A stretch of DNA of 64,000 bases from Bacillota bacterium (GTDB lineage: Bacteria; Bacillota; Sulfobacillia; JAJYWN01), in NCBI GenBank assembly GCA_021791495.1, contig JAJYWN010000051.1:1-64000 (forward strand). Reading direction: 5' to 3'. The notes beneath the pieces were generated by a model, which was not told where the DNA came from, searched no databases, and saw only the letters and a list, made by a program, of their open reading frames with translations. A program made the position numbers and the translations under genes. Positions 6,362-31,667 of this stretch are shown one piece after another. Each line of letters opens with the position of its first letter. Within the stretch, counting starts at the first letter, position 1.

Positions 6362-6362
6362 C

Positions 6363-10615: not shown

Positions 10616-10620
10616 TACGC

Positions 10621-10845: not shown

Positions 10846-10891
10846 ATGACGGTCTTCCCTCCGCCCCCGCGGACCTTGGGTGTCGTTGTTG

Positions 10892-11305: not shown

Positions 11306-11428
11306 AAGACCACTCCTTGTTATGCCTCAAAGGAAGCACAACGCATTTCGCATCCAACGTCCGGAATTCCTGCCTCTTCCTGCCTCTTCCCGCCTGCTCG
11401 CCAGCGAGGACCCGGCGGCTCGCGGGCA

Positions 11429-12946: not shown

Positions 12947-12950
12947 TCCG

Positions 12951-14750: not shown

Positions 14751-14788
14751 TGCTTCGACCATGCCCGGATCCGTCCACCCTTCCAAAA

Positions 14789-15325: not shown

Positions 15326-15338
15326 GGCTGGTGGTGTT

Positions 15339-15608: not shown

Positions 15609-15763
15609 GTGGCAGACCTCCCCGGACAACTCTTCCGTGCCTGGATTCCGCCGCCCGGAGCCAAATTCCTCCCAGGAACCTTTTGGCGTGGCATTCGTAG
15701 GAAGTGACGGACTTGGTGCAGAATAACTGGCGGGCATACGCCGGTGTTCAAGGGAGGTTCGTG

Positions 15764-16027
15764 GTGGACTTTTCGTTGATCGAATACACGCTCTGGGTCA
15801 TGGTGGCCTTTTGGAGCCTGGTCCTGATCGATAACGTCTATGCCAAGGTCGCCGGAGGACTCCTCCTGGCTCTGGCCTTCGTCCGCGCGCTCCTGGAACC
15901 CAACCGGCCGATTAGCGGCCGCGAGGGCTCCGACCACCCTGGGCACTCCAGTCCACCGGCGCCGGGCACTGACGACCAAGGCCCTGCCGGTGCTGAACCT
16001 CATAGAGGAGGCCGTAACGTCTTCTAG
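15764..16027 (+). CDS. small two-helix membrane protein
   Basis: Product of about 87 residues from a GTG at 15764 (or 15761) just after AGGGAGGT. It has two probable membrane segments (YTLWVMVAFWSLVLIDNVY and AKVAGGLLLALAFVRALLE) followed by a Pro/Gly/His-rich cytoplasmic or external tail. It is read on the opposite strand to its neighbours. No family recognised; the SD and membrane pattern support a real gene. Confidence 0.5.
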   Translation: MDFSLIEYTLWVMVAFWSLVLIDNVYAKVAGGLLLALAFVRALLEPNRPISGREGSDHPGHSSPPAPGTDDQGPAGAEPHRGGRNVF

Positions 16028-16509: not shown

Positions 16510-18402
16510 CTAACTCCCGACCACGCACCCATCTTCCCGACAGGCTCTGGGTGCCGCGTAGTCCACCTCGGGGATGAGCAAGTGGGCTTCCTGGGTGACG
16601 CCGAAGACCACTGCTACCGAGGCCGTTCCGGCGATGGCTGCCTGCCCGGTGGAGGCACCGTAGAGAATGGCCGCACCCGCGGCGTTGGTCCCGCTATCCG
16701 TCTCGGTTGCACTCAAAGGCTCCCGGCCGTCCTGGTAGCCGGCCGACGGCGCGCCGACCATGACCATGGCCGAATGCCGCGAAGAGGCGCCGGCTCCCAG
16801 AGACCAACCGAACTCCTCCCCCGCCGTCTGACCATTCAGTCGCTGCACAAGGGCACCGTCGCCGGCACGGAAGATGAAAACGCTGCCCGCCCAGTACCGG
16901 CCATCAGGAGAAGTCCAGGGCGCCCCGGCCGCGAAGCACGGGTCTGAACCGGCCAGCCCTCCGGCCACCGAGGTCCCCATCCCACCGCCGGCTTCCGGCC
17001 CATCGACCCTTGTGAGCACCGACCCGGTCCGGCCCGAGCAGACGAAAACGCTGCCGGCTTCTTCCCTCAACCCCGGCGAGGCGGACGGAGCCCCGATGAG
17101 CAAATCCGGCCGCGCGCCGCCGGTATGGGCCAGGGAAAAACCGAAACCGTCACCGGGCGAGATACCGTCGATCCGGTAAAGGAGGCGGCCGTCGGCGCCC
17201 GAAAAGACGTAGACGCTGCCGGCTTCCGTTCTTCCTTCTGGAGAGGCCCAGGGCGCGCCGGCAACGATGTCCGGGACGCCGTCACCGTCCAGGTCGGCTC
17301 CACCCATCACCGCGTAGCCGAAGGCGTCTCCAGCGGCTTCACCGTCCCAACGGGCGAGCAGCCTGCCATCGCGCCCGGAATAGAGGTAGGTGGAGCCGGC
17401 GTCCGTCCGGGCGCCGGGGTCGGTGGACGGGGCGCCGATGAGGATGTCCGGCACACCGTCACCATCAACGTCTCCCGCCCACGATACGGCCCACGCGAAC
17501 TGGTCCCAGACGCCCTCGCCGTTGAAACGGAGCGAAGCTTGGCAGGTCCCGCCGGACAAAGAGTAGGCGCTGCCGGCATTCGGGTGAAGACCGTCCGGGT
17601 CGGCGGACGGACTACCCACCAGGACGCTAGGGCCGGGGCCGAGGCCGGGGCCAAAGCCGGGACGGGGGCCGGGACGGGGGCCGGGACCGGAGCCAGGACG
17701 GGGGCCGGGATCGGAGCCAGGTCCAGGGCCGGCCGCGGACGGCGGCATCGCAACGGCGAAGCCGAACTCCTCGGGCTGTGATTGCCCGTCGCAGCGGAGG
17801 AGAGGGACGGCGGAGTCGGGCGAATAGACGTAAAGGCTACCGGCGTCCTCCAGTCCCCCTGGGGAGGATGACGGGGCGCCCGCCCCGGCGAAGTCTTGGG
17901 ACCGGTAACCAGAAAACCAGGTCGCGTAACCCAGTTGCCCTCCGCCCTCGACTCCGGTGTAGCGCCGTACGGGCACGAGATGCAGGTCGCTACCAGGCAC
18001 TCCGGGAGGAAGAGGACATAGAACGAAGGAAGCTTGACATGGCTGGGCGTCGATGCGCAGGCGCGCGGTCCGGGGGTCGGGGAAGTTTACATAAGCGGTG
18101 ACGGGAAAGGACAGTTCCCGCGCGGCGGTGAGGGTCGAAGGGCCGCAACGGAAGTGAAAGACATAGGTTACCAAGACCTCCAAAGCGACGGCCGCCTGCC
18201 CGTGCCCCACCGGCGTCACCACCGGCCCCTTGATGACGATCCCGCCTGGAAGGGGAGCGTAGTCGGTGAGCTGGCAGTCCGTGGATACCTCAGGAGGCGC
18301 CGGCCAGATGAAGCAGCCGGAGGCTATCTTGCAGCAATAGTCCAGGACCAGTTGTGCCTTGTGGCAGCCTATCCTGCTTGGGCGAAAGGCGTTGCCGTTC
18401 AC
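16510..18402 (-). CDS. FG-GAP (integrin-alpha-type) beta-propeller protein
   Basis: A roughly 630-residue protein. The first ~200 residues are a beta-rich domain with several cysteines (DYCCKIASGCFIW). The rest is a run of FG-GAP blades, each with a VLVGAPSAD / GSVYVFSG pattern and Ca-binding DxDGDGxPD loops (DVDGDGVPDILIGAP, DLDGDGVPDIVAGAP). A Gly/Pro/Arg repeat linker (GPGPRPGPRPG) sits between two blades. The start is GTG 18402 with GGGGA seven bases upstream; the ORF extends further but would overlap the cupin gene. No clear signal peptide is present with this start, so surface location is unproven. It ends the sugar-nucleotide operon. Confidence 0.82.
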   Translation of the reverse strand: MNGNAFRPSRIGCHKAQLVLDYCCKIASGCFIWPAPPEVSTDCQLTDYAPLPGGIVIKGPVVTPVGHGQAAVALEVLVTYVFHFRCGPSTLTAARELSFPVTAYVNFPDPRTARLRIDAQPCQASFVLCPLPPGVPGSDLHLVPVRRYTGVEGGGQLGYATWFSGYRSQDFAGAGAPSSSPGGLEDAGSLYVYSPDSAVPLLRCDGQSQPEEFGFAVAMPPSAAGPGPGSDPGPRPGSGPGPRPGPRPGFGPGLGPGPSVLVGSPSADPDGLHPNAGSAYSLSGGTCQASLRFNGEGVWDQFAWAVSWAGDVDGDGVPDILIGAPSTDPGARTDAGSTYLYSGRDGRLLARWDGEAAGDAFGYAVMGGADLDGDGVPDIVAGAPWASPEGRTEAGSVYVFSGADGRLLYRIDGISPGDGFGFSLAHTGGARPDLLIGAPSASPGLREEAGSVFVCSGRTGSVLTRVDGPEAGGGMGTSVAGGLAGSDPCFAAGAPWTSPDGRYWAGSVFIFRAGDGALVQRLNGQTAGEEFGWSLGAGASSRHSAMVMVGAPSAGYQDGREPLSATETDSGTNAAGAAILYGASTGQAAIAGTASVAVVFGVTQEAHLLIPEVDYAAPRACREDGCVVGS

Positions 18403-18427
18403 TGCGGGTTCCCCGCTTCCCCGCTTC

Positions 18428-18832
18428 CTATGGCTCCCAGGGATATGTGTCTGGATCCCTCGGGTCAAAGGCCTCGCTGATGTACGCCAGGAGCATCAAT
18501 GTTTCCGTTCCCGTGTTTCTCACGGCGTGGGCCACCATGGGCGGTATTCGCACGACCTCCGGCCGGCGGCCATCCAGCGGAATCCGCCCGGACGCGCCGG
18601 TGGACGGGTCTGACAGGCGAATTTCCGCCGCCCCCTGAAGAACACAGAACCATTCGGTCTTGCGTCGGTGGAAGTGGTTACCTTTGACCGCGCCCACCAC
18701 GGCTGTGGTCAAGTATACCTGGCCTTCTAGCGCCAGCGAGACCCACGGGGCACGGAAGACTTCCACCAACAGGCCGCGGTGGTCGGCGTGGATTTCCAGG
18801 GGAGTGACCGTAACCCCGTTGAGGTCAATCAT
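18428..18832 (-). CDS. cupin-fold sugar epimerase-like protein (WxcM/CapF C-terminal type)
   Basis: A 134-residue single-domain cupin starting at ATG 18832 (MIDLNGVTVTPLEIHADHRG), with VVGAVKGNHFHRRKTEWFCVLQGAAEIRL as the cupin motif and VVRIPPMVAHAVRNTG as the second. It resembles dTDP-4-dehydrorhamnose 3,5-epimerase/WxcM and the C-terminal domain of CapF. It overlaps rmlD by 8 bp (ATGATTGA). It probably epimerises or isomerises a nucleotide-linked keto-sugar in the same pathway as the adjacent reductase. Confidence 0.82.
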   Translation of the reverse strand: MIDLNGVTVTPLEIHADHRGLLVEVFRAPWVSLALEGQVYLTTAVVGAVKGNHFHRRKTEWFCVLQGAAEIRLSDPSTGASGRIPLDGRRPEVVRIPPMVAHAVRNTGTETLMLLAYISEAFDPRDPDTYPWEP

Positions 18833-19826
18833 CAGGCCCAACCCCTTGGCGGACTTCCTCGCGCACGCCTTCGTCGAGCGACGGGAGACTGCATCCCAGA
18901 GTCCCCTGGGCCTTCCCGACCAGGAGCGAGACATCGGCCGGCCTCACCGCCCGTCCCCTGACCACGGCGGGCGAGTTGTCGGCGGGCGAGTGGTCGGGAC
19001 CGCAAACGGACATAACGGGGCGCAGAAGGCGGTCCGTTTCGTCCTTGGGCAGGTCCAACTCATGGGCCACCGCCAGGGCGAATTCGTAGCGGTTGCACCT
19101 GGTAGTCCCACCCATGTGAAAGAGGCCGGTCAAGCCACGCTCGGCTACCTCGGCGACGCCTCTGGCCAGAGCACTGACGGACAGCGGCGAGGAGAATTGG
19201 TCCAACACCAGGTCCAGAGGTGCCCCCCGCCCCCCGTTCGCACCGGCATCGGCCCCGGCGTCAATCCGTGCTCTCCGGCAGGTTTCAACGACGCGATTGA
19301 ACAGCCCTTTTCCGTCCGGCCGCATCCCGAAAAAGGTGGTCCTCAAGATGGCGTGGTCGGCGCCACCCGACACGGCGGCGATCTCCCCCGCGCGCTTGGT
19401 CACCCCGTACCAGTTGCACGGATGGGGCAGGTCGCCTTCACGATAGAGTCCCCGGCGACCGTCGAAGACATAATCCGTGGAAATGTAGACAAGGAGCGCT
19501 CCGACAGCCGCCGCCGCCGCCGCCAGATGGGCCGTACCACAGGCGTTCACCCGCCAGGCCAACTCCGGCTCGGTCTCGCACCGGTCCACGTCGGTCAGCG
19601 CCGCAGTGTGGATGATGACCTCCGGTCGCAGACCCGCTACTAGGTCGCACACGCCCGGCCGGTCGACCAGATCCACGACCTCGTGACTGCAGGAGGGAGT
19701 CTTGGCCTGCCGTCCCGGCTCGTGATGGAGAAGGGCGACGGGTTCGAGGGCCAGACTGACCGACAGAGCGCCCAGGAGGCGCTCTCCGAGGAAACCGCCC
19801 GCGCCCGTGACCAAGACCCGCTTCAA
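18825..19826 (-). CDS. rmlD: dTDP-4-dehydrorhamnose reductase-like protein
   Basis: A 333-residue SDR of the RmlD type: RVLVTGAGGFLGERLLGAL (NAD(P)-binding), VIHTAALTDVDRCE, the catalytic-site strand LVYISTDYVFDGRRGLY with YxxxK as YGVTKRAGE, and AILRTTFFG. The TTG start at 19826 overlaps the upstream stop (TTGA), so it is translationally coupled to the epimerase gene. A short Ala/Gly/Asp insertion (DAGADAGANGGRG) lies near residue 225. With the cupin gene it would make a 6-deoxyhexose nucleotide. Confidence 0.85.
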   Translation of the reverse strand: MKRVLVTGAGGFLGERLLGALSVSLALEPVALLHHEPGRQAKTPSCSHEVVDLVDRPGVCDLVAGLRPEVIIHTAALTDVDRCETEPELAWRVNACGTAHLAAAAAAVGALLVYISTDYVFDGRRGLYREGDLPHPCNWYGVTKRAGEIAAVSGGADHAILRTTFFGMRPDGKGLFNRVVETCRRARIDAGADAGANGGRGAPLDLVLDQFSSPLSVSALARGVAEVAERGLTGLFHMGGTTRCNRYEFALAVAHELDLPKDETDRLLRPVMSVCGPDHSPADNSPAVVRGRAVRPADVSLLVGKAQGTLGCSLPSLDEGVREEVRQGVGPDD

Positions 19827-20833
19827 GGGGTCCGCCCCGCTTCCACCGAAGGTGTCACCGCGGTCGCCCCTTGCCGCGAGCGTGTCCAGGCTACCGTACG
19901 GCGGATCCCTTCCTCCAGGCCCACCACGGGCCGCCAACCCAAGAGGCGGTGGACCTTCCCGTAGTCGCACACCAACCGCCCTATCTCGCTGCGCGGGTGC
20001 AGGGGAGGGACATGCCGGATGGGAACCTTCCGCGCCCCGCTTTCCACCACGCTATCACGCACCTTGGAGGCCAGGTCGATAATGGCGGTGTCCTGGCCTG
20101 TTCCCGCATTCAGTATCTGCCCGACGGCTTGTTCGGCCAGGGACGCCCGGCAGATGAACTCAACACAGTCCCCGACGTACATGAGGTCTCGGGTCTGGGA
20201 CCCATTTCCGTAAACGTTAAGTGGAAGCCCGCGCAAGGCCCTGTCCGTAAAGATGGCCACTACGCCGCCTTCCGCATCGGCGCGCTGGAAAGGACCGTAG
20301 GTGTTGAAAGGACGGAGGACAGTGACCGGTAGGCCGTAGGCGCGACAGTACCCCAGAGCCAACTCCTCCGCGGCGAGCTTGGCGGCGGCGTAGGGGGAGC
20401 GGGGTTCCACCGGGTGAGTCTCGTCGATGGCCTTCCCCTCCACCGCCGGAGCGTACACCATGCAGGTGCTGACCATAACGAGGCGGACATGGTGCCGCCG
20501 GCATTGTTCCAGTATCTCGTGGGCACCGGCCACGTTGGTAGCGAAATCGCGTCCGGGATCGTCCAGACTGGATTGGACATTCACCTGACCGGCCAGGTGC
20601 AGGCACAGTTCAGGAGCGGCCGGGGTCCCAAAGAACCGTGACAATGCTGCCCTGTCTCCCACGCCGGCCACCGTCAGCCCCTCGAAGTTCGGGGAGGCTT
20701 CGCATTCGGCGAGGTTCTGGCGGTTCCCGCTGGATAGATCGTCGATGACGCCCACGCGGTGGCCGGCGAACAGGAACCTCTTGACCACCCATCGACCAAT
20801 GAATCCGGCCCCGCCAGTCACCAGGATCCTCAT
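19823..20833 (-). CDS. NAD-dependent epimerase/dehydratase (GalE-like SDR)
   Basis: A 336-residue extended SDR: MRILVTGGAGFIGRWVVKRFLFAG, VIDDLSSGNRQNL, LHLAGQVNVQSSLDDP, the active-site YAAAK (PRSPYAAAKLAAEEL), and LRPFNTYGP. The pattern matches UDP-glucose 4-epimerase or UDP-glucuronate epimerase/decarboxylase relatives. The ATG at 20833 overlaps the neighbouring gene's stop. Together with the next gene it supplies nucleotide sugars for the glycosyltransferases upstream on the same strand; the exact sugar is not determinable. Confidence 0.85.
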   Translation of the reverse strand: MRILVTGGAGFIGRWVVKRFLFAGHRVGVIDDLSSGNRQNLAECEASPNFEGLTVAGVGDRAALSRFFGTPAAPELCLHLAGQVNVQSSLDDPGRDFATNVAGAHEILEQCRRHHVRLVMVSTCMVYAPAVEGKAIDETHPVEPRSPYAAAKLAAEELALGYCRAYGLPVTVLRPFNTYGPFQRADAEGGVVAIFTDRALRGLPLNVYGNGSQTRDLMYVGDCVEFICRASLAEQAVGQILNAGTGQDTAIIDLASKVRDSVVESGARKVPIRHVPPLHPRSEIGRLVCDYGKVHRLLGWRPVVGLEEGIRRTVAWTRSRQGATAVTPSVEAGRTP

Positions 20834-20835
20834 TT

Positions 20836-21846
20836 TCACCACTGCTCCAGACCGGCCGCCGGACCGGAGATCGGCGACCCGGGAGAACGGCCGAGGAACT
20901 TCTCATACCAGGCGATGGTCCGGCGTAGCCCTTCGGTTAACGTGTATTGCGGTTCCCATCCAGTCAGAGCCTTGATTCTCGAGATGTCCGCTAACAACCG
21001 GGGCAGATCGCCCTGACGGGCTTTCGTCTTCACTATCGACGACGGGGAGCCTGTCAGATCGATGATGATCCGGGCGAGCGACTCGATACTGGTCTCCGTG
21101 CCCGTCCCTATATTCAGCGTCTGTCCGGCCAGGCGGTCGCGGCCGTCCAGGACCTGGCAGTAAGCCCTGACCGCGTCCTTCACGTACATGAAGTCCCTGG
21201 TCTGGGTGCCTTCACCCTGGATGGTCAGGGGCTGACCTCCGAGGGCCTTCGCAATGAAGGACGGGATGACCGCGGCGTGGCCGGCGGTATTCTGGTTCTC
21301 CCCGAAGGTGTTGAAGTTCCGGATGATGATCACAGGATAGCCGTACCACTGGTAAAGGGACTGGCAGTGCTTCTCCGCGGCCAGTTTGGTCACAGCGTAG
21401 ACGCTCTTCGGGTAAGATGGGTGATCTTCGTCCAGGGGAACGTACCGCGGCGCCCCGTAGACCTCTGGGGAGGAAGCGTAGATCAGGACCGGCCGCCGTT
21501 CGCTGGCCATCAGAACGCGGGCCAGGTGGAACGTCCCTTGTTCGTTGTTTTGGAAATACCTCCAAGGCTGCTCCATGGACTCGTCGATTGATACGTAGGC
21601 CGCCAGGTGGATGACGGCGTCTACCTCCCAACGGTTGAGGTCGTGAGTAGTGAGATCCTGAAAACGGCGCCGGTGCAGTTGAACCTTGGCGGCGGCCTCG
21701 TCGGAAGGTAGGAAGGGGTCTGGTACGTCGAAGTGCCGGGAGAAGTTGTCAACGGCAATAACCCGCTCCACATCCTGACGGCGGACCAAGGCGTCAACCA
21801 GATGGACCCCGTAGAGGCCGGCCGCCCCTGTTACCAACACTCGCAG
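20836..21846 (-). CDS. NAD-dependent epimerase/dehydratase, probable CTG start
   Basis: An extended SDR of about 336 residues: RVLVTGAAGLYGVHLVDALV, VIHLAAYVSIDESMEQP, YPKSVYAVTKLAAEKHCQ (YxxxK), IIIRNFNTFGENQNT. Related to UDP-glucose/UDP-GlcNAc 4-epimerases and dTDP-glucose 4,6-dehydratase-like proteins. The family start (M)RVLVTG aligns with CTG 21846, six bases after AAGGGGGGA; the in-frame GTG at 21873 lacks an SD. It is the first gene of a five-gene - strand operon ending with the FG-GAP gene. Confidence 0.83.
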   Translation of the reverse strand: MRVLVTGAAGLYGVHLVDALVRRQDVERVIAVDNFSRHFDVPDPFLPSDEAAAKVQLHRRRFQDLTTHDLNRWEVDAVIHLAAYVSIDESMEQPWRYFQNNEQGTFHLARVLMASERRPVLIYASSPEVYGAPRYVPLDEDHPSYPKSVYAVTKLAAEKHCQSLYQWYGYPVIIIRNFNTFGENQNTAGHAAVIPSFIAKALGGQPLTIQGEGTQTRDFMYVKDAVRAYCQVLDGRDRLAGQTLNIGTGTETSIESLARIIIDLTGSPSSIVKTKARQGDLPRLLADISRIKALTGWEPQYTLTEGLRRTIAWYEKFLGRSPGSPISGPAAGLEQW

Positions 21847-21973
21847 GGCGATTCCCCCCTTACCTATCAGCACATTCTGTAAACACGGTTCATTCTATGA
21901 CGAGGTACCCAAAAGGGTCCCGCCCGGACGGGACGTTGGCCCCCCATCCACCATAAGTTGGGATGAGGATGAA

Positions 21974-23419
21974 GTGATCCGGCCCAGGGCCGGCGCGGGA
22001 GGGCTAATCTTGGACGGCGGACCATTGAATGGTGGGTTGGGAGCCAGCATCATCGTCACCACCTACAACCAGCTTCCCTATACGAAAATGTGCCTGGAGA
22101 GCATTGCGGCCTTCGTCCCGGCGGGTTACGAGCTTGTCGTGGTGGATAACGCGTCCGCGGACGGGACGCGGGAGTACCTGAAGGGATTGGCGGCGGCCGA
22201 TCCGGGAATGAAGGTGATCTTCAACCGGCGCAACCGGGGTTTCCCCGCCGCCGCGAACCAAGGTCTCCGGGCAGCGTCCAAGGATGTCTTGGTGCTGCTA
22301 AATAACGACATGGTGGTCTCCCGGAACTGGATGGAGAACCTGTTGAACTGCCTGGCTGAAGCGGGAGCGGGAATGGTTGGCCCCATGTGCAACTTCATCT
22401 CGGGTGCCCAGAGGATCCCCACCACCTATAAGGACATGGGCGAGATGCACGCGTTCGCGGAGGCTTTCAACCGGCCCGACCCGTCCAAGTGGCGGCGGGC
22501 CACGCGGTTGGGCGGAGGATCATTGGCCATTTCAAGGAAGTTGGTGGAGGCCGTCGGCTACTTCGACGAACGTTTCACCCCTGGGAACTATGAAGACGAT
22601 GACTATTCGCTACGGGCCGTAGCTGCTGGTTTCAAGCTCTTCATCGCGGGGGACACTTTCGTCCACCATTTTGGCAACACCACCTTACGGCGGGACGGAG
22701 ACAAGGCTTACGAGAACCTGCTCGAACGGAACGGGCGGCTCCTGACCGCCAAGTGGCACACAGATGATTGCGGGGTGGCCTATTTTCGGAGCGCTCTGGC
22801 TGATGCGGTGCCACCCGGGGGCTCACGGGCTTTGGACCTGTGCTGTAAGGCCGGCGCCCTCGGGCTGGAACTAAAGAACCGGGGCCTGTCGGAAGTGGTG
22901 GGAGTGGAGACCGGACGGCGCCTGGCGATGGTGGCGACGCACAGCCTTGACCGTGTGTTTCTGGCTTCCCCCGAGAGAGTGCGCCTGCCGTATCCAGAAG
23001 GCTATTTCGATCGGGTCGTGGTCGCGGGCGCCTTCGAGCGCGCCCATGACCCGTGGCGGCTCCTCCGGTCCGTGGCCGGATGGCTGGCTCCCGGAGGTTA
23101 CCTGGTGACAATGGTGCCAAACGTCAGCCACGTCAGCGTCCTGGCCAACCTCCTGGGGGGGCGGTGGGATTACGGGCTGGGGGGTGTCCTTCAGCCGCCG
23201 CACCTGCGTTTTTTCACGATGTCAACCTTCGTGCGGGGGCTGCGGGAGGCAGGCTTCCAGATGGTCAGCGCGAGGGGTTTGGGTGGAGAACTCAATGAGA
23301 CCACCCTTGACTTCCTACGGGACCTGGAAGCCGTCGCTCGAAAATACGGGCTGGCGCCGGGGAATCTGCCCATGGAGGGGCAGGCCTTGGAGCTACTGGT
23401 GGTGGCCAAACGCACGTGA
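21974..23419 (+). CDS. GT2 glycosyltransferase fused to a class I methyltransferase
   Basis: A 481-residue fusion. Residues ~16-250 form a GT2 (GT-A) domain: ASIIVTTYNQLPYTKMCLESI, VVDNASADGTREYL, the DxD-like VLLNNDMVVSRNW, and GNYEDDDYSLRAVAAGFKLF. Residues ~265-480 form a SAM-dependent methyltransferase (GSRALDLCCKAGALGLELKN, then LPYPEGYFDRVVVAGAFERAHDPWRLL). A nucleotide-sugar glycosyltransfer followed by O-methylation on one chain is plausible. The GTG start at 21974 is the family-compatible choice. Its 3' end overlaps the convergent GT2-TPR gene by 27 bp. Confidence 0.85.
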   Translation: MIRPRAGAGGLILDGGPLNGGLGASIIVTTYNQLPYTKMCLESIAAFVPAGYELVVVDNASADGTREYLKGLAAADPGMKVIFNRRNRGFPAAANQGLRAASKDVLVLLNNDMVVSRNWMENLLNCLAEAGAGMVGPMCNFISGAQRIPTTYKDMGEMHAFAEAFNRPDPSKWRRATRLGGGSLAISRKLVEAVGYFDERFTPGNYEDDDYSLRAVAAGFKLFIAGDTFVHHFGNTTLRRDGDKAYENLLERNGRLLTAKWHTDDCGVAYFRSALADAVPPGGSRALDLCCKAGALGLELKNRGLSEVVGVETGRRLAMVATHSLDRVFLASPERVRLPYPEGYFDRVVVAGAFERAHDPWRLLRSVAGWLAPGGYLVTMVPNVSHVSVLANLLGGRWDYGLGGVLQPPHLRFFTMSTFVRGLREAGFQMVSARGLGGELNETTLDFLRDLEAVARKYGLAPGNLPMEGQALELLVVAKRT

Positions 23420-24589
23420 GGGGCGGGCGAGGGTGTCCGTGAGGGACTGTCTCATCCCCTGGAGCCGGTGCAGTAGTGGTGTCGCCGCGGACGTGGCCGC
23501 GGCCTCGACCGAGGCGTTATCCCCAGTCGCGACCGTGTCAGTTCCCTCAGGCTCGCATCCGGCTGCGGTGATGGCCAACTCAAGCCAGGTGAGGGCCACT
23601 CCGAGGACGGCCCGGTCTCCCCCCACTCCCGAGAAAGAGCTGTAGCGTGGGGGAGCCGGGCCCAGACTCAGGCATCTCTCAAAGCACTTGCGGCCGGCGG
23701 CGGTCCGTCCCGCCTGGAACTCCAGGCCGCCCAGGAGGAACCAGAGGTCGGTGAAGTCCGGGTAGAGCCGGATACCCTCCCGGAGCACCTCTCTTGCCTC
23801 ACGGTAACCGCCCTGGTAAAGGTGGCAGAGAGCCACCTTAGCCAAGAGGTCGCCGTGCCTTGGCTCTGTCGGTCCCCAATGGCCCAGAGCGATCTGAAAA
23901 TGGGATAGGGCCCCGGGGTAGTCGGCCGAACCGAGCAGTTCGGCGCCCAGGCAATAATGCAGGAAGGGGTCGTCCGGCCGCCGTTCCAGTTCTTTCGAGA
24001 GCAGGCGGCGGTTGCGGGTCCCTTTCTGTTTCGAGACCATCCGGCCATCGAGATAGCCGTAGTGGAGAATGCGCAAGGGCGCCAGAGCCGTGCCTTCCGG
24101 TTCGAAATCACCTGTCAGTTCCTCGTGGATGGCGCCTTTGAACCGGTAGCAGGGGCGGTTCCGGAAAAGGGAAAGGCGGAGGTCCCGGACGAAATCCCTG
24201 GCCGGGACCGTGGCTACGGTGGCCGTGGCGGCCGGAGTGGCCGCTCCCAGGAAGCTGATGATCGGGAGGTGGTAGGCCTCAACATCTGTCTGGAGGAGTG
24301 GCCGCACCTGATCCCGGTCGTCCGGATGAAGCTCCTCGTCGGCGTCCAGCATCAGGACCCACCGGCCGGTGGCCCGGCCTATGGCGTAATTCCGGGCGGC
24401 AGCGAAATCGTCCGTCCACGGGAAGTCATAGACCAGGGCGCCAAGGTCGCGAGCGATGGTTTTCGTGTCGTCGGTGGAACCCGTGTCCACCACCACTACT
24501 TCGTCCGCCACCCCGGAAACGCTGGTAAGGCACCTGGGCAGGTCCGCCTCTTCGTCGCGAACCACAACGCAAACGGTTAACAGGTTCAC
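23393..24589 (-). CDS. GT2 glycosyltransferase with C-terminal TPR-like helices
   Basis: A 398-residue protein. The N-terminal GT2 domain (LLTVCVVVRDEEADLPRCLTSV, VVVVDTGSTDDTKTIARD, YDFPWTDDFAAARNYA, the DxD in WVLMLDADEELHPDD) is followed by alpha-helical repeats (about residues 190-330). This GT2-TPR architecture is shared with SunS-type peptide glycosyltransferases. GTG 24589 overlaps the upstream stop by 4 bp. It is the last of three consecutive paralogous GT2-TPR genes, all - strand and coupled. Confidence 0.88.
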   Translation of the reverse strand: MNLLTVCVVVRDEEADLPRCLTSVSGVADEVVVVDTGSTDDTKTIARDLGALVYDFPWTDDFAAARNYAIGRATGRWVLMLDADEELHPDDRDQVRPLLQTDVEAYHLPIISFLGAATPAATATVATVPARDFVRDLRLSLFRNRPCYRFKGAIHEELTGDFEPEGTALAPLRILHYGYLDGRMVSKQKGTRNRRLLSKELERRPDDPFLHYCLGAELLGSADYPGALSHFQIALGHWGPTEPRHGDLLAKVALCHLYQGGYREAREVLREGIRLYPDFTDLWFLLGGLEFQAGRTAAGRKCFERCLSLGPAPPRYSSFSGVGGDRAVLGVALTWLELAITAAGCEPEGTDTVATGDNASVEAAATSAATPLLHRLQGMRQSLTDTLARPSRAFGHHQ

Positions 24590-26556
24590 GTCGGCAGCGC
24601 GGCCCGGCGCCAGCGTTGCCCTTGTTGTTGGATGGCTTTAGCCAGCCCCAGGGTGGCTTTGAGGTCCCAGGCCTGTGTCCGGAGGACGCGGCGGTAGAGA
24701 GTGGCGGCCCGCCCCAGATTCCCGCGGCCCAACTCGATTTCCGCCAGGAGTCCCATGCCCTCCATACTTGACGGGCCGGTCGGGCCCTCCTGTCCCGCCG
24801 GACAGGCCACGACGCCTCCTTCGAGCAGCTTCGCCGCCAAGTCCAGGTCCCCGTGGCGGGCCAGCATGCGCGCCACTCGAGTCGCCTCAGCGGTGTCGGC
24901 CCCCCGGGGTCCCAACAAGGACAAGGCCAGCAGGGCTTTCTCGGGATCACCCAGTTCCGCCAGTCTCTCGGCCAAGTTCACGGCGGCTTCGCGGGCCGCC
25001 GCCGGGAGGCGGCCGGCCGTTCTTTCCGCGGCGGGAGACAGCAATGACCGGGTGAAAACCCGGTACACCGCAAGCTGTGGGTCACGGGTGACCTTGCCGG
25101 TGACCGACCGGTCCCTAGCCGTCAACCGTGTCAGGAGAGCCTGGGCGAGGTCCGGCCGGTCCTCCAGCCACGCGCAGAGACACAGGTTCAATTGAGCCTG
25201 GCGGTAGACTCCCGCCGCCCCGGGTGGGATCTTAGACAGCCACTGCCTCGCTAGGGATGTGTCCCCCACCCCTAACCAGCACAGGGCAGTCAGGAGGGCC
25301 TCGTGAGCTTGGGCGGGGGATTGGCTTTCAGCGGCCCCTAAGAGTGTGAGGGCATCCCGGTACAGCCCGTTGGACATCAATGCTTCGGCCAACCGGACTG
25401 TGGACCCGCCCGTCGCGTCGACCAGGTCCAGCAGCGCCTGCCGCACCCGGCCGCTCCCCTTCCAGGCTTCCAACGCCCCGACTAGGAAATCAAGCGCCGG
25501 CATGAAGCGTGGGTTCGCTTTTAGGGCGATCAGATACGCCTGGACCGCTGCCTCGTAACAGCCCATCGCCTGCATAGCGTGGCCCAGGCCGAAGGCGGCC
25601 TTGAAGCTCCCCACTCCCAGGTCGCTGGGGTAATGAAACGGAGCCTCACCCATAGCTAGGCAGCGCCGGAAGCCTTCGGCCGCGCCTCTCAGGTCGCCCA
25701 GTTGCTGGAGGAGCCCCGCTCGGAGAAAGTGCAGGTCCGTGTAGTCAGGGTAGGTCCCTAACCCCTGGTCGGCCTCCTCCAAAGCTTCGGAGGCCCGGTC
25801 CAGGAGAGTCAGGCAGAGCACCGTCTTCTTGGCCAGCTCGGGGACCCACCCTCCCCGGCCCCCACGGACCAGCCGCGCGGCCTGCCGGTAACTGTCCAAG
25901 GCCTTGGCATAAGCCCCGGCGCGTATATGCTCGGTTCCCAGATGGAAGTGGGCCGAAGGGTCGTCAGGATGCCGCTTTACCACGTTCCGGCAGATGACCA
26001 GATTCCTCCGGATTTTCTTGCGCCCGCGGACTTCCGGAGTAAGGTACCCGTAATGGAGGACCTGGACGTCCTCACGGGCCAGACGTGCACCGGGCGCGAT
26101 GGTCAGGTACTCGTGGATGGCCCCGACGTAGCGGCGCCCGGGGCGGTTTCGGAAAAGGCGCAGGTGAGGGCAGACGACGACGTCCTCGCCGGGCTGGTCG
26201 CCGACGTAGCTCACAGTCTGAAAAAAGAAACCCTCGACGGCTTCGTCGGCGCTGCCAGCCAGTCCGCGCACCCGTGACCGGTCCCTGGCGGCTATCTCGT
26301 CATCGGCGTCGAGCACCAGGATCCAACGCCCGGCCGCCCGCTCCAACCCGAAGTTCCGGGCGGCGGCGAAGTCGTCGGCCCAGGCCATGGAGTAGATGGT
26401 GGCCCCGTAGGCGCGGCACACTTCCACCGTCCGGTCGGTGGAACCGGTATCGACGACGATAATCTCGTCCGCCAGTCCTTTGGCGCTTTCAAGGCAACGG
26501 CCGATGTTGGCCTCCTCGTTCCTCGCGATCAGGCAAAGGCTAATGAGCGCTGTCAT
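24586..26556 (-). CDS. GT2 glycosyltransferase with long TPR region
   Basis: A 656-residue protein. The GT2 domain is residues 1-~230 (ISLCLIARNEEANIGRCLES, IIVVDTGSTDRTVEVCRAYG, YSMAWADDFAAARNFG, the DxD in WILVLDADDEIAARD). Over 400 residues of helical TPR-like repeats follow (for example AHFHLGTEHIRAGAYAKALDSYRQAARL). ATG 26556 overlaps the upstream gene by 17 bp and has GGAG upstream. The longest of the three paralogues; its TPR arm could hold a protein or peptide acceptor, by analogy with SunS. Confidence 0.88.
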   Translation of the reverse strand: MTALISLCLIARNEEANIGRCLESAKGLADEIIVVDTGSTDRTVEVCRAYGATIYSMAWADDFAAARNFGLERAAGRWILVLDADDEIAARDRSRVRGLAGSADEAVEGFFFQTVSYVGDQPGEDVVVCPHLRLFRNRPGRRYVGAIHEYLTIAPGARLAREDVQVLHYGYLTPEVRGRKKIRRNLVICRNVVKRHPDDPSAHFHLGTEHIRAGAYAKALDSYRQAARLVRGGRGGWVPELAKKTVLCLTLLDRASEALEEADQGLGTYPDYTDLHFLRAGLLQQLGDLRGAAEGFRRCLAMGEAPFHYPSDLGVGSFKAAFGLGHAMQAMGCYEAAVQAYLIALKANPRFMPALDFLVGALEAWKGSGRVRQALLDLVDATGGSTVRLAEALMSNGLYRDALTLLGAAESQSPAQAHEALLTALCWLGVGDTSLARQWLSKIPPGAAGVYRQAQLNLCLCAWLEDRPDLAQALLTRLTARDRSVTGKVTRDPQLAVYRVFTRSLLSPAAERTAGRLPAAAREAAVNLAERLAELGDPEKALLALSLLGPRGADTAEATRVARMLARHGDLDLAAKLLEGGVVACPAGQEGPTGPSSMEGMGLLAEIELGRGNLGRAATLYRRVLRTQAWDLKATLGLAKAIQQQGQRWRRAALPT

Positions 26557-28216
26557 AGCTACTCCCAGTCCGCGGCGGCGCGGCAGGACCCGCCTCCAAG
26601 CGCCCGGCCTGGTCCGCTCCGATGTCGACCAATGCTTTTCGGAGGAGTTCGGACTCGGGAAAGCGCTTCAACCCCTCGCGCAAGACGATGGCCGCTTCCT
26701 CGAAGAACATCGCCGCCAGGGACAGGAAAGTGGCCTGATCCGCCCCGATCCGGTCGAGGACCGCCCGGGCCTCGGAGAGGCGATCTTCCGACCAGTAGCT
26801 AAAACAGAGCCCCAAGGCGCTCTGGCGGTAGTAGGGACTGTCTTCGGGGACTTGCAGAAACTCCTCGGCGGCTAGGTTGTAGCGGCCCGTTCTCAGCAGG
26901 CAGATGCCGCGGAGGTAACGAACTTGGGCGGTGGGCGGGGCGATCTGAACGGCCCGGTTCAAGTACTCCAGAGCGACGGCGTGCCCGGCGGCCACGCAGA
27001 AGATGTCGGCCAGTGTCACTAGCGGACCTTGACGGTCGAGATCGAAGTACCGTTCGAGGTAAGCCCGGACTGCCGCCGGCCCTTCCCTGGGAAGGACCAG
27101 GGCGGTCAGGCGGTAAAGGGGCTGCAACCAGCCGGCGCTGCTCTCGAAGGCCACTTGGTACGCGCGTGCCGCCTGCGCCACCCGCCCCATGTCTTCGTAG
27201 CACTGACCCAAGGCGTAGTGCGCGCGGTGTCCGGCCAGTCCTTCTTCGGCCGCGGCATAGGGCGGAACCGGTGGCGGGCCCATCGCCAGGCATTGATAGA
27301 AGGAACCCAGAGCCTGCCGGTAACGGCGGGCCGAATGGTGGGCCACGCCCTCCAGGTAAACCAGGTCCGTGTACTCCGGGTATACCCTCAAGCCTTCATC
27401 GATTCGGACCACAGCTTCGTCCCAGCGGCCCAACTTCATGAGGCTGATAACGGTGGTCTTGACCAGCTTGCTGCCCCACATGGCGCCGGCGGCCATGTAC
27501 TTGGCTGCTTTCTCCAAGCACTCGAGAGCTTCCTGGTGTCGGTTCAGCCGGTGATACTCGACGCCAAGGTTGAACAGGATGAAACCGTTTTCGGGGTTCG
27601 CTTCGACCTGAAGCCTGGCCAGATCCAGGTTGCGCTGGCTCTTACTCCTCGCCTTAGGCAAGTCGGAGAGATACCCGAAGTGGTTGATGCGCAGCGGCGC
27701 AGGGGTGAGGACGGTCCCGGACGCCGACCCTGACCGTGCTTTCAGGATATTCTCCCCGACCTGCTCGTGCAGGGCCCCGGAAAAGCGGTATTCCCAGCGG
27801 TTCCGGAAAAGGCGGACGGCGGCGGAGAGTTCCACTTCGGGCTGGGAGGACATCCCGGTGTAGTTTCGGATTTGGACCAGATGCCCTTCGGCCTCACTCT
27901 TCGCCAGGAACGCCTTGATCCCCGGTCGGTCCTCGACCACCAGTTCCTCGTCGGCGTCTAGGACCAGAATCCAGTCACTGGTAGCTCTCTCCAGAGAGGC
28001 GTTGCGGGCCGCGGAAAAGTCACCGTTCCAAGGGAAGAAGCTAACGAAAGCGCCATGTCTCTCCGCGATCTCCACCGTGCGGTCGGAAGATCCTGTATCC
28101 ACCACGATGATCTCGTCCACAACCCCGCTTGTGCTGGCGAGACACTTCTCCAGGAAGTCCTCCTCGTTTCGGGTGATCATGCACAGAGTCAGCCGGTTGG
28201 GGGCCGCTTCCACCAC
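26540..28216 (-). CDS. GT2 glycosyltransferase with TPR region
   Basis: A roughly 558-residue protein beginning at GTG 28216, just after GGAGGTG. GT2 domain: RLTLCMITRNEEDFLEKCLAST, IIVVDTGSSDRTVEIAERHG, VSFFPWNGDFSAARNAS, the DxD in WILVLDADEELVVED. The C-terminal half is TPR-like (NGFILFNLGVEYHRLNRHQEALECLEKAAKY). It is the first gene of the three-gene GT2-TPR operon and diverges from the sequon-repeat gene, whose start lies 150 bp away. Confidence 0.88.
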   Translation of the reverse strand: MVEAAPNRLTLCMITRNEEDFLEKCLASTSGVVDEIIVVDTGSSDRTVEIAERHGAFVSFFPWNGDFSAARNASLERATSDWILVLDADEELVVEDRPGIKAFLAKSEAEGHLVQIRNYTGMSSQPEVELSAAVRLFRNRWEYRFSGALHEQVGENILKARSGSASGTVLTPAPLRINHFGYLSDLPKARSKSQRNLDLARLQVEANPENGFILFNLGVEYHRLNRHQEALECLEKAAKYMAAGAMWGSKLVKTTVISLMKLGRWDEAVVRIDEGLRVYPEYTDLVYLEGVAHHSARRYRQALGSFYQCLAMGPPPVPPYAAAEEGLAGHRAHYALGQCYEDMGRVAQAARAYQVAFESSAGWLQPLYRLTALVLPREGPAAVRAYLERYFDLDRQGPLVTLADIFCVAAGHAVALEYLNRAVQIAPPTAQVRYLRGICLLRTGRYNLAAEEFLQVPEDSPYYRQSALGLCFSYWSEDRLSEARAVLDRIGADQATFLSLAAMFFEEAAIVLREGLKRFPESELLRKALVDIGADQAGRLEAGPAAPPRTGSSYDSAH

Positions 28217-28366
28217 GGGACACCTCCAGAACAACCTTCGGTTCCAGGGTATGCCTCATGGTCATCGCCGGTTCGAAGGGGGACATCCGCCCAATGTTCA
28301 TGTGTTATGGTAACTTCTGTGTAGGGCGTTCATATTTGTGGACGGAGGAAGAAAGGAGGGATGACA

Positions 28367-29296
28367 ATGCCAAACTTCAAGGTGTTCAGTGAGTCGCCTT
28401 CGCAATTATTGGCTCAAGTGTCCAACACGACGGCGGCCAGCCTGGTCACCCAAGTCACAAACCTCACGGCGGCCAGTCTGGTTACGCAGATGAGCAACTT
28501 GACCCCTGCCAGCCTGCTGGCCCAGGTCTCTAACGAAACCGCGGCGAGCCTACTGTCCCAGGTCTCCAACAGCACGGCAGCCAGCCTACTCTCGCAAGTC
28601 TCCAATAGCACGGCGGCCAGCTTGCTGTCGCAGGTATCGAACAGCACGGCCGCTAGCCTGCTGTCGCAGGTATCCAACAGCACGGCCGCCAGCTTACTCT
28701 CCCAGGTATCCAACAGCACGGCGGCCAGTTTGCTGTCGCAGGTATCGAACAGTACCGCCGCCAGCTTGCTCTCCCAAGTGTCCAACAGCACGGCGGCGAG
28801 CTTGCTGTCCCAGGTCTCCAACAGTACCGCCGCCAGCTTGCTCTCCCAAGTGTCCAACAGCACGGCGGCGAGCTTGCTGTCCCAGGTCTCCAACAGTACG
28901 GCCGCCAGCTTGCTGTCGCAGGTGTCCAACACCACCGCGGCCAGCCTGGTAATGCAGTTGGGCGGACGGGCCACGACGGACACGGAGACGGATGTGGCCG
29001 ACTCTGGAAGCACGACTTACAAGGATACCACCGCGCGCAACGTACTCCAGTTGAGCCAACTGACCTTTACGGTCATCAACGCTGGCACTTCCAACACCGC
29101 TCAGGCCCGTATCATGTTGAGCGCGGACGACACCACCTACACCATCGACCCGACCGTTACGGCGCAAAGCATCACCCCAGGCACACAGTACTTCTTCGTT
29201 CCCGGCCGTTTCACCAAGTATGCCAAGATTCAGTACGCGTCTCTTACCACCGACCTGACGACGTCGTTAAGTATCTACTTCCAGGCCAGCAACTAG
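28367..29296 (+). CDS. 12-residue-repeat protein with an N-x-T sequon in every repeat; DUF6385-like C-terminus
   Basis: A 309-residue protein starting at ATG 28367, seven bases after AAAGGAGGG. Residues ~14-200 are 15 tandem units of 12 residues with consensus SLLSQVSNSTAA. Every unit keeps N-x-T while x varies (T, L, L, E, then S, last T). The C-terminal ~110 residues (from LGGRATTDTETD) are a beta-rich domain resembling DUF6385 (LQLSQLTFTVINAGTSNTAQARIMLSADD). No signal peptide, membrane segment or cysteine is present. Silent differences between units with constant protein sequence point to selection on the protein. Its position beside four glycosyltransferase genes suggests a glycosylated or structural repeat; this is unproven. 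Confidence 0.82.
   Translation: MPNFKVFSESPSQLLAQVSNTTAASLVTQVTNLTAASLVTQMSNLTPASLLAQVSNETAASLLSQVSNSTAASLLSQVSNSTAASLLSQVSNSTAASLLSQVSNSTAASLLSQVSNSTAASLLSQVSNSTAASLLSQVSNSTAASLLSQVSNSTAASLLSQVSNSTAASLLSQVSNSTAASLLSQVSNTTAASLVMQLGGRATTDTETDVADSGSTTYKDTTARNVLQLSQLTFTVINAGTSNTAQARIMLSADDTTYTIDPTVTAQSITPGTQYFFVPGRFTKYAKIQYASLTTDLTTSLSIYFQASN
28409..28956 (+). repeat. 36-bp tandem repeat array within the sequon-repeat gene
   Basis: About 15 units of 36 bp. Most units differ at synonymous positions, but 28748-28819 and 28820-28891 are an exact 72-bp tandem duplication, showing that the array still changes copy number by two-unit steps. Confidence 0.85.
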
Positions 29297-29349
29297 GGCG
29301 CGGCTTCCTCAAGGTGAGAATCATGACCGATGTGGCTCGCACCGACTTC

Positions 29350-29382
29350 CCCGCCACTCCTATAGTGGCGGGACCTCTTTTT
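29350..29382 (+). terminator. intrinsic terminator after the sequon-repeat gene
   Basis: Stem CCCGCCACT (29350-29358)/AGTGGCGGG (29364-29372), loop cctat, followed by acctc and TTTTT (29378-29382). A textbook rho-independent terminator 54 bp after the stop. Confidence 0.88.
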
Positions 29383-29448
29383 CAGGCATACATTTGGATG
29401 TGTCCGAGGGCCCATCGGGGCCGAAGCGACGAAAGGTGAGGAGCAACC

Positions 29449-30069
29449 ATGGGCCAGCCGTTTGCAGATAACCCGATGTTGTACCCACCCACTCTGGGGG
29501 CCAAGTTGAAGGCTTTGGTCGACGGCCATGCCAGCCTGCTGGACCTGGGTTGTGGTACGGGGAAGTGGGCGGAGATATTCGACTGCCCCGTTAAGGTGGG
29601 CGTGGACATCCACCGGCCCCACTTGGAAGCCCGGCATCCGGCGGCGCACCTCATCCCCCTCTGCCTGGATCTACGCCGGATCGGCGAGGTCTTCTTGCCC
29701 CGCACTTTCGCGGCGGTCCTTTTGATGGACATCGTAGAGCATTTGGCGAAGCCGGACGGGATAGCACTTCTGGCGCAAGCGAGCCTCATCGCCACCCACC
29801 GCGTGGTCTTGTTCACTCCACGCGGTTTTTTCCCTCAAGGAGCGGTGGACCTCACGGGCCGAGGTGGCGCCCAATACCAGGAGCATCTGTCCGGCTGGGA
29901 ACCTGACGACCTCCTTGGACTGGGCTTTAATGTCCTCATCCTCCAAGGTTTCCACGGCCCGGAAGACCCGGCTTTCTTGGCGGCTTTCGGCGGTCCGGAA
30001 GCTTCCCGCGTCGATGCCTTGCTGGCATGGAAGGACGTTTGGGCGGACTGGGTGCAGGGTAGGACGTAG
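29449..30069 (+). CDS. class I SAM-dependent methyltransferase
   Basis: A 206-residue methyltransferase with a compact motif I (HASLLDLGCGTGKWAEIFD), an acidic loop VGVDIHRPHLEARH and the motif IV-like FAAVLLMDIVEHLAKPDG. ATG 29449 has GTGAGGAG upstream. It follows the terminator of the sequon-repeat gene and so has its own transcript. In this locus it probably methylates a sugar or glycolipid intermediate; the acceptor is unknown. It converges with the TPR gene 6 bp away. Confidence 0.85.
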   Translation: MGQPFADNPMLYPPTLGAKLKALVDGHASLLDLGCGTGKWAEIFDCPVKVGVDIHRPHLEARHPAAHLIPLCLDLRRIGEVFLPRTFAAVLLMDIVEHLAKPDGIALLAQASLIATHRVVLFTPRGFFPQGAVDLTGRGGAQYQEHLSGWEPDDLLGLGFNVLILQGFHGPEDPAFLAAFGGPEASRVDALLAWKDVWADWVQGRT

Positions 30070-30074
30070 TGCCC

Positions 30075-31409
30075 TCAGGCGTGTTTCAGAAGCTCGCCCA
30101 CGACCTCGGCGCCCTTCGTGTCCCCCGCCTTGCGCGCCTGGTCCTGGGTCCTATTCAGCACCTCGCGGCTGACCAACTGCCTGACCAGGGGAGCCAGCGG
30201 ACCGGGGAAGCCGGGTAGCAATTCGGCGCCTTTCTTCCAGGACGCGACGGCCGGCGCGGGCTCACCGCTCCGGGCCTGTATAATCCCCAGATCCAGAAAT
30301 GCCCTAGGATACTTGGCGTTCAGTTGCAAGGCCCGGTCCACCTCGGCGCGGGCCCCGTTGAGGTCGTTCTGGCGGATCTTGATCTCGGCGATATTCACAG
30401 GGACATCGGGGTTGTCTTTCTCCAATTCGCCAAGCTTCTCCCACCACTGGATGGAGCCGGCCTGGTCACCTTTCCTCAGGCGCGAGACGGCCATGTTGAT
30501 GTAGGCCTTGCTATAGCCGGGGGCTATCTCGATGGTTTGTTGCCACTGCCTTTCCGCCCCCTCCAAGTCACCGCGCTGGGCCTGCGCCAAGCCCAGGTTG
30601 TAGAGGGCGTCGGGGAACTTGGGGTCCAGCTCCAAGGCCTTCTCCCAGCAGGATTCGGCGTCCTTCATATTCCCCGCCACCGCGTGGGCCTCACCTAGGG
30701 TGCTGATGATGCGTGGGTCCTTGGGGTCCAGTTCCGTGGCTTTCTTAAAGGCTTCAGTAGCTTTCGGCAGCTGGCCCTGACGGAAAAAGGCCAAGCCGAT
30801 ATTGAAATACGGCAGGGGCAGGTTAGCATCCAATTGCAGAGCTTGGCGGCTTTCGAAGACCGATTGTTCCAGATCACCTTGGTCCAAGAACGCTCCACCG
30901 AGGAGCTGGTGCACGCGGGCGTCGTCGGGGTTGATGGAGGCCGCCTTGGTCCAGACCTTGATGGCCTCTTCCAGCTGCCCGATCATCAGGTGGACCTCGC
31001 CCAGGTGCATCAACGCCAGGGGATGCTTGTTCTCTGGGTCATATTCCACGGCTTTCTTGAACTCGTGGATGGCGCCGTCCCACATACCGCGGGCGGTGTA
31101 GATCTTCCCCAGGTTGAAGTGGGCGTGGGCGTGGCGAGGGTTGAGTTTGATGACTTCCTTGAAATGACCCTGCGCTTCGTCGAGCTTGTCTTGTTCGGCG
31201 AAGGTCACGCCGATGAGGTAATGGGCGCTGATGTTCCGGGGGTCCAGACGCAGCGTCTCCTCAAACTCGGCGAGGGCCTCGTTGAACATGTTCTTCCCCA
31301 TGTAGGCGACGGCCAAGTCGTGATGGTACATCCAGTTCTTCGGGTTCTTCTTAATCTCGAGCTTGCATTTCTCGATGATCTCGTCGAGCTTCTCGCCGGG
31401 TATGTTCAT
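30075..31409 (-). CDS. TPR repeat protein
   Basis: A 444-residue protein made almost wholly of tetratricopeptide repeats (about 11 units such as AHAHFNLGKIYTARGMWDGAIHEFKKAVEYDP), starting at ATG 31409 (MNIPGEKLDEIIEKCK) with GGGGAGGG upstream. The open frame reaches 31607, but that extension is low-complexity and has no SD. No signal peptide or enzymatic domain. A cytoplasmic scaffold, perhaps for the adjacent glycosylation enzymes; the partner is unknown. Confidence 0.85.
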   Translation of the reverse strand: MNIPGEKLDEIIEKCKLEIKKNPKNWMYHHDLAVAYMGKNMFNEALAEFEETLRLDPRNISAHYLIGVTFAEQDKLDEAQGHFKEVIKLNPRHAHAHFNLGKIYTARGMWDGAIHEFKKAVEYDPENKHPLALMHLGEVHLMIGQLEEAIKVWTKAASINPDDARVHQLLGGAFLDQGDLEQSVFESRQALQLDANLPLPYFNIGLAFFRQGQLPKATEAFKKATELDPKDPRIISTLGEAHAVAGNMKDAESCWEKALELDPKFPDALYNLGLAQAQRGDLEGAERQWQQTIEIAPGYSKAYINMAVSRLRKGDQAGSIQWWEKLGELEKDNPDVPVNIAEIKIRQNDLNGARAEVDRALQLNAKYPRAFLDLGIIQARSGEPAPAVASWKKGAELLPGFPGPLAPLVRQLVSREVLNRTQDQARKAGDTKGAEVVGELLKHA

Positions 31410-31667
31410 GCTGTCGCCCTCCCCGTTCTCGTACGCCCGGGCATGCGGGGTGTTCCAGCTGCCGCTACACCCGTTGGGCCTGTTTCCATCTTCGCCCAAG
31501 GTCGGGGGCTCCCCTTCTGCCTTGGAATCCACAGGAGCTAGTATTGCCTCACCAAGGTCGACGGTCTGCGCCTGCCCGTCCCGACGCGGACCGTTGGGTT
31601 GGTACATTATGTTAACACACCATCATTCCGGTGAATAGGGTGGCATGGCGGAATCAACCCCTGAGAG

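Follow-up and report, generated by a model that had tools for sequence, protein, structure and literature searches.

The closest described system is that of Clostridioides difficile, in which the gene for SgtA, a glycosyltransferase with a GT-A domain and four tetratricopeptide repeats (TPRs), lies next to bclA3 and the enzyme adds beta-O-linked N-acetylglucosamine (GlcNAc) to Thr residues in the repeats of BclA3, a spore-surface protein (PMC7157674). The bclA1-3 genes of this species are under sigma-K control (PMC3789822). A comparable arrangement was found in the first 64,000 nucleotides of contig JAJYWN010000051.1 (assembly GCA_021791495.1, forward strand) of a Bacillota bacterium of the class Sulfobacillia, a stretch referred to here as the window. 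An island in the window combines genes for family 2 glycosyltransferases with TPRs (GT2-TPR enzymes) and for sugar-modifying enzymes with a gene for a repeat protein that carries a DUF6385 domain. The reading that accounted best for the evidence, and to which we give a probability of about two in three (0.66), was a spore-surface glycoprotein locus, expressed late in the mother cell, in which cytoplasmic GT2-TPR enzymes would O-glycosylate Ser and Thr residues of the DUF6385 repeat protein. The repeat protein as acceptor, the O-linkage, the spore localisation and the sugar are those that we infer. A preliminary description of this DNA had proposed a densely glycosylated repeat protein, for the cell surface or an intracellular structure; a surface protein remained the best reading, and the sigma-K-type promoters make the spore surface its most likely place.

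The likeness to SgtA-BclA3 consisted of a GT-A (GT2) domain with C-terminal TPRs, a position beside a repeat-protein gene, predicted late mother-cell expression and Thr in the repeats. BclA3 is collagen-like, whereas the protein described here is a DUF6385 protein with helical-looking 12-mers, and the single glycosyltransferase of C. difficile contrasts with up to four tandem GT2-TPR genes and additional sugar-nucleotide genes, for which the linkage is predicted. Among solved structures, GmaR, the flagellin glycosyltransferase and antirepressor of Listeria, was the closest relative of one island enzyme (enzyme c; 22ao, E 2e-29). GmaR transfers O-GlcNAc to a surface protein but acts on flagellin, binds the repressor MogR and has no DUF6385 partner. 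SunS was also a structural relative of enzyme c (7e-21) and, like ThuS, has a GT2 domain with a helical arm; these enzymes form S-linkages to Cys. The SunS-type architecture of the preliminary description held in so far as SunS (TIGR04195) was the nearest NCBIfam model, but scores of only 62 to 80 bits fell far under the cut-off of 350. A SunS/glycocin system was rejected on these scores, no glycocin precursor was seen among the genes examined and the window repeats lack Cys.

The island and the DUF6385/GT2-TPR linkage across the phylum

The following features were assigned, in window coordinates.

28361..29296 (+), DUF6385 repeat protein, 311 residues, with leader, repeats, linker and C-terminal DUF6385 domain
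Residues 3-18 of this protein, MPNFKVF leader
28415-28954, repeat block of this protein, 15 x 12 residues
29039-29290 (residues 227-310), DUF6385 domain of this protein (Pfam, E 6e-18)
26540..28234 (-), GT2-TPR enzyme c, 564 residues, DAD motif VLDADEEL (Pfam)
24586..26556 (-), GT2-TPR enzyme b, 656 residues, motif VLDADDEI (Pfam)
23393..24589 (-), GT2-TPR enzyme a, 398 residues, motif LMLDADEE (Pfam)
21974..23419 (+), GT2-methyltransferase fusion (Pfam)
20836..21873 (-), NAD-dependent sugar epimerase/dehydratase A (Pfam), likely start nearer 21840
19823..20842 (-), NAD-dependent sugar epimerase/dehydratase B (Pfam)
18825..19970 (-), RmlD-like reductase (Pfam), below the equivalog cut-off
18428..18934 (-), cupin, a Polysacc_synt_C / FdtA / WbcJ-C-like sugar-modifying enzyme (Pfam)

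Pfam thereby confirmed the three adjacent GT2-TPR genes, the GT2-methyltransferase fusion and the epimerase, RmlD and cupin genes that had been recognised before. In the island GT2-TPR enzymes, TPRs came after an N-terminal GT2 (GT-A) domain that contains DxD, and the DAD motif was kept in all three. Enzymes b and c were 35% identical, and the likely true start of enzyme c was a GTG codon behind GGAGGTG, at about 28213. The DUF6385 domain (PF19912; 65 bits against a gathering cut-off of 26.8) had been overlooked, as had the match of the repeats to the MgtE_N profile and the promoters described below. No solved relatives of this domain were found by sequence, and a phage or plasmid origin was rejected, as neither a PHROG for DUF6385 nor a match to a plasmid was found. 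The repeat protein had no evident hydrophobic N-terminal segment or secretion signal (maximum KD19, 1.0) and no STT3/PglB oligosaccharyltransferase was found in the genome, as the preliminary description had held.

Repeat-type DUF6385 proteins shared an architecture of a common leader, a variable repeat block and a C-terminal DUF6385 domain. The leader read roughly M-P-N-[FY]-K-[VI]-F-x-[DE]-x-[PA]-x-x-L-[RK]-x-x-[IV]-[YF]-G; its first positions, up to the residue after F, had served to choose the repeat-type set, and the later positions had not.

DUF6385 was present in 16 of 154 genomes sampled from the class and 56 of 399 from the phylum. Sixty stretches were compared, three of them from elsewhere in the genome to which the window belongs. 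Most DUF6385 loci had one to four tandem GT2-TPR genes directly beside the DUF6385 gene. Of 75 strong GT2-TPR matches, 66 had a DUF6385 domain no more than 12 kb away, against about 1 expected, and this linkage to the gene of the candidate acceptor was seen in 25 of 30 DUF6385-positive genomes. GT2-TPR genes occurred in 26 of these 30 genomes but in only 12 of 30 genomes with SpoIVA and without DUF6385 (15 matches in total; Fisher p 4e-4). Furthermore, among 38 repeat-type proteins, the Ser plus Thr content was 0.283 with an adjacent GT2-TPR gene and 0.211 without one (p 0.004). Ser/Thr richness was thus a common property of the repeat proteins flanked by glycosyltransferases, which points to O-glycosylation.

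A second GT2-TPR cluster was located on another contig of the same genome (C47 of G000, 47.7-58 kb; positions 5674-16000 of stretch L083). This cluster (L083 5674-9704, minus strand) had no DUF6385 and was divergent from a gene for a 148-residue Ser/Thr-rich protein without a known domain (9812-10258, plus strand), which was preceded by a strict sigma-K-type match at 9759; a further sigma-K-type match at 13730 preceded a UDP-sugar dehydrogenase-epimerase pair. The cluster appears to be another spore-surface glycoprotein locus, and its unrelated Ser/Thr-rich protein indicated that the enzymes follow Ser/Thr-rich late-sporulation proteins rather than N-x-T.

Several DUF6385 loci had other features. 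A second DUF6385 protein was often present, with an N-terminal part that was DNRLRE-like or otherwise different. By eye, a DNRLRE-like N-terminal part with C-terminal DUF6385 was recognised in stretches L023-L026, L069, L075, L077, L078, L088, L090, L101 and L109; these proteins often adjoined a repeat-type DUF6385 protein and are candidate anchor or carbohydrate-binding partners. The literature found on DNRLRE does not concern spores. Short DUF6385 proteins with an N-terminal part resembling a membrane helix were encoded at L099 9663-10145 and L115 9590-10225. At L079 9065-10072 (plus strand; genome G078), a frame at a contig edge, divergent from the DUF6385 gene, was TPR-like without a recognisable GT2 part; G078 carries GT2-TPR genes on other contigs.

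An alternative that we regard as unlikely, although it deserves to be taken seriously, is that the products of the glycosyltransferase and sugar genes make a polysaccharide of the spore surface, of a crust- or exosporium-like kind, the repeat protein being merely co-regulated or a non-covalent anchor. The epimerase, RmlD and cupin genes resemble those of polysaccharide loci, DUF6385 proteins without GT2-TPR genes exist, and in other genomes DNRLRE-type domains appear, by eye, to be fused to DUF6385; CBM96, a DNRLRE-type relative, is described as binding alginate (PMC9971899). However, the known enzymes that share the GT2-TPR architecture (GmaR, SunS and SgtA) modify proteins, and the island genes examined included no recognisable flippase or polymerase. 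Moreover, sugar-nucleotide genes were missing beside most DUF6385/GT2-TPR pairs, while GT2-TPR and DUF6385 stayed together.

Sigma-K-type promoters

An AC at -35 is a mark of sigma K. The strict pattern was AC-N15-17-CATANNNT[AG], and the promoters assigned in the island were as follows.

28245..28272 (-), upstream of the GT2-TPR operon, strict sigma-K-type match ACCGGCGATGACCATGAGGCATACCCTG
28313..28339 (+), upstream of the repeat gene, weaker sigma-K-like match ACTTCTGTGTAGGGCGTTCATATTTGT at 6 of 8 positions, 48 bp ahead of the ATG
21891..21918 (-), upstream of the epimerase/RmlD/cupin operon, strict sigma-K-type match ACCCTTTTGGGTACCTCGTCATAGAATG
21933..21960 (+), upstream of the GT2-methyltransferase gene, strict sigma-K-type match ACGTTGGCCCCCCATCCACCATAAGTTG

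Only three matches to the strict pattern occurred on both strands of the 64-kb window, all of them within the two divergent intergenic regions of the island and each oriented into its gene. Counts in this genome covered the window and the three other stretches, which had 0, 2 and 1 strict matches in 16, 16 and 20 kb, so that the pattern was not unique to the island. In a survey of 38 repeat genes, a sigma-K-type pattern (AC, 15-17 bases, then CATANNNTA or a close variant) was found upstream of 20, whereas 200 shuffles averaged 2.7 and never exceeded 9; patterns for sigma E, sigma G and sigma A showed no enrichment upstream of the same genes. Matches at 7 or more of the 8 positions preceded 76% of the repeat genes but 10% of other long open reading frames in the same stretches, and lay mostly 47 to 85 bp before the start of the repeat gene. 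The sigma-E and sigma-K promoters of C. difficile were reported to be very similar to those of Bacillus subtilis, the two types sharing the -10 element and differing at -35 (PMC3789822). Judged from these motifs, the island is probably switched on late in spore formation. SigK was found above its curated cut-off in the window's genome, and SpoIVA was also present. Among the genomes sampled, SpoIVA occurred in 54 of 56 with DUF6385 and 282 of 343 others (p 0.005); the two exceptions with DUF6385 were only 75 to 80% complete.

Several observations weigh against a spore-surface glycoprotein locus. The promoter of the window repeat gene itself was the weakest of the four, and elsewhere the strict motif stood before the first glycosyltransferase gene in only 8 of 46 runs (control, 33 of 582). 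With SpoIVA in 84% of the phylum genomes, its link to DUF6385 is weak when taken alone. Five of the 30 DUF6385-positive genomes had no nearby GT2-TPR gene, which indicated that a DUF6385 protein does not always need one. The composition comparison had only 7 proteins without an adjacent GT2-TPR gene, and the genomes are phylogenetically related, so the p-values are approximate. The glycosyltransferases could also act on another acceptor.

Neighbouring genes were inspected as well. The end of the island had been placed at 31409, a position that falls within an ordinary TPR gene (30075-31607, minus strand; 510 residues, TPR-only) adjoining the island without a demonstrated link or other evidence of membership. 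Directly downstream of the cupin gene and in the same direction lies a gene for a 652-residue FG-GAP repeat protein (16510..18468, minus strand). This protein has a low-complexity stretch rich in G and P, no signal peptide is evident in it, and it is a possible further surface protein and candidate island member. A gene at 11429-12946 (minus strand) joins a metallo-beta-lactamase domain to an RNA polymerase alpha C-terminal-type domain. No RNA elements were matched in the window by Rfam.

Predicted structure of the repeats and the N-x-T motif

The repeat block of the window protein consisted of exactly 15 units, back to back from 28415, with the 12-residue consensus QVSNSTAASLLS; Tandem Repeats Finder also called a 36-bp array at 28508-28945. 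The 15-fold N-x-T repeat with varying x was confirmed in every unit, x being T, L, L, E, then S ten times, then T, and the 15 sequons exceeded the 5.8 expected on shuffling (z 5.1). Differences between units were mostly silent (mean nonsynonymous divergence dN, 0.14; mean synonymous divergence dS, 1.26), indicating that selection maintains the protein repeat. The invariance of Asn and Thr amid silent DNA variation was therefore real, but Q1, A8, S9 and L10 were equally invariant, and within the window protein Asn and Thr were not singled out.

The repeats matched the MgtE_N profile (PF03448) at 70 bits against a Pfam cut-off of 26. When modelled with AlphaFold, the window protein and the L027 homologue had one helix of 8 residues or slightly more per 12-residue unit, with a predicted local distance difference test score (pLDDT) of 76 to 90 in the array centre; the models were built on 4 sequences and were poor outside the repeats, with a pLDDT mostly below 50 in the DUF6385 domain. 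A Foldseek search with the first model gave MgtE N domains as the top PDB matches, at a weak E value of 0.02. Profile and models agreed with each other on a possible MgtE_N-like solenoid of 12-residue helical repeats, but the alignment was shallow. In the window model the helix begins at Asn, which would make Ser the N-cap and Thr a capping-box residue. This would give a structural reason for S-N-x-T and for the tolerated S-N-P-T and S-Q-P-T, and on these models N-x-T in the repeats may serve for helix capping.

It is distinctly improbable that S-N-x-T is kept only for folding of such an alpha-solenoid and that glycosylation may be absent altogether. The profile match, the helix per unit in both homologues and the tolerance of P at x and of Q for N, which fits a helix start, speak for this explanation; the small alignments and weak Foldseek values detract from it, and capping leaves the GT2-TPR linkage without an explanation. 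Capping therefore replaces at most the reason for sequon conservation and not the reading as a spore-surface glycoprotein locus.

The preliminary description had implied that N-x-T was the glycosylation target and had named loss of N or T in homologues, without effect on glycosyltransferase co-occurrence, as the refuting observation. In 70 units of the same 12-residue type from eight loci, Thr or Ser was kept in 68 and Asn in 64, but N-x-T with x other than P in only 52. Full sets of sequons were present in L068 (14 of 14 units) and L105 (9 of 9), as in the window. In L080, however, all 10 units read N-P-T, with four GT2-TPR-like reading frames alongside, and in L076 5 of 6 units read Q-P-T or Q-P-A (5 without N and 2 without T), with an adjoining GT2-TPR gene at 51% identity. 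Homologous repeats reading V-S-N-P-T or V-S-Q-P-T/A were thus still accompanied by GT2-TPR genes. Outside the 12-residue subfamily, wholly different repeats (e.g., GLAITAPANGLTVTAPASGLSIT, TITSVLGATITAGTL and LDIRDLTNATDSILVYGNDGT) also retained GT2-TPR neighbours. Two sequons or fewer were found in 21 of 31 repeat proteins flanked by glycosyltransferases, most of which showed no sequon enrichment, and sequon density was unrelated to glycosyltransferase presence among the 38 repeat-type proteins (p 0.21). The N-x-T motif was accordingly rejected as a true sequon, and N-glycosylation at N-x-T is unlikely. The idea of a cytoplasmic protein-glycosylation locus stood, since GT2-TPR genes track DUF6385 across the phylum and SgtA provides a precedent (PMC7157674); the sequon as its target did not.

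SunS and GmaR modify Cys or Ser/Thr, not Asn, and to our knowledge the known cytoplasmic N-glycosyltransferases belong to GT41 and not to GT2. Thus, although a protein without a signal peptide could be N-glycosylated on Asn in the cytoplasm without an oligosaccharyltransferase, the persistence of GT2-TPR genes beside wholly or largely sequon-free repeats, the transfer to Thr by SgtA (PMC7157674) and the absence of STT3 leave this explanation highly improbable.

Proposed pathway and wider significance

For a spore-surface glycoprotein locus, the following course of events is proposed. Sigma K would transcribe four divergent units in the mother cell late in sporulation, namely the DUF6385 repeat protein gene, the GT2-TPR operon, the GT2-methyltransferase gene and the sugar-nucleotide operon. 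The epimerase, RmlD and cupin enzymes would supply at least one modified (probably deoxy) sugar nucleotide. In the cytoplasm the GT2-TPR enzymes would use their TPR arms to dock onto the repeat protein and would assemble O-linked glycans on Ser and Thr of its Ser/Thr-rich repeats, and the GT2-methyltransferase would extend or cap, and methylate, the glycan. The product, having no signal peptide, would reach the forespore from the side of the mother cell and become part of the coat, of the exosporium or of a fibre. Its MPNxKVF leader and DUF6385 domain may be assembly modules and its repeat block a variable spacer.

A likeness in architecture was noted to the endospore appendage protein F-ENA (DUF4183; PMC11952670), which has an M-P-hydrophobic N-terminal hook, a spacer of variable length, a head domain and no signal peptide, and whose anchor proteins join this head domain to a different N-terminal part, as the DNRLRE-like DUF6385 proteins do. 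F-ENA-4 likely carries O-glycans on Ser/Thr (PMC11952670). The DUF4183 head domain was absent from the window protein, homology between DUF6385 and DUF4183 was rejected (none detectable; hhalign probability, 0.2%) and, in contrast to F-ENA, a fibre role for DUF6385 proteins is suggested by architecture only. It is conceivable, if rather unlikely, that DUF6385 proteins are subunits of an unrecognised class of O-glycosylated endospore surface fibres, under sigma K across Bacillota. The leader would then be a docking hook, the repeats a spacer free in length and fold (alpha or beta), DUF6385 the head, the DNRLRE-like DUF6385 proteins an anchor or tip and the GT2-TPR enzymes dedicated glycosylators.

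The kind of system is known, but as far as we searched, the DUF6385 family, its phylum-wide linkage to GT2-TPR genes and the promoters have not been described; DUF6385 occurs in about one in seven of the phylum genomes sampled, yet no paper mentioning it was found in the literature searched. These results caution against taking N-x-T repeats for N-glycosylation sites. The linkage and the promoters assign to a family of unknown proteins a testable place (the spore surface), time (late, in the mother cell) and modification (an O-glycan). They suggest that SgtA/BclA3 of C. difficile exemplifies a more general strategy: the GT2-TPR enzymes are kept, while the spore protein with its repeats diverges beyond recognition.

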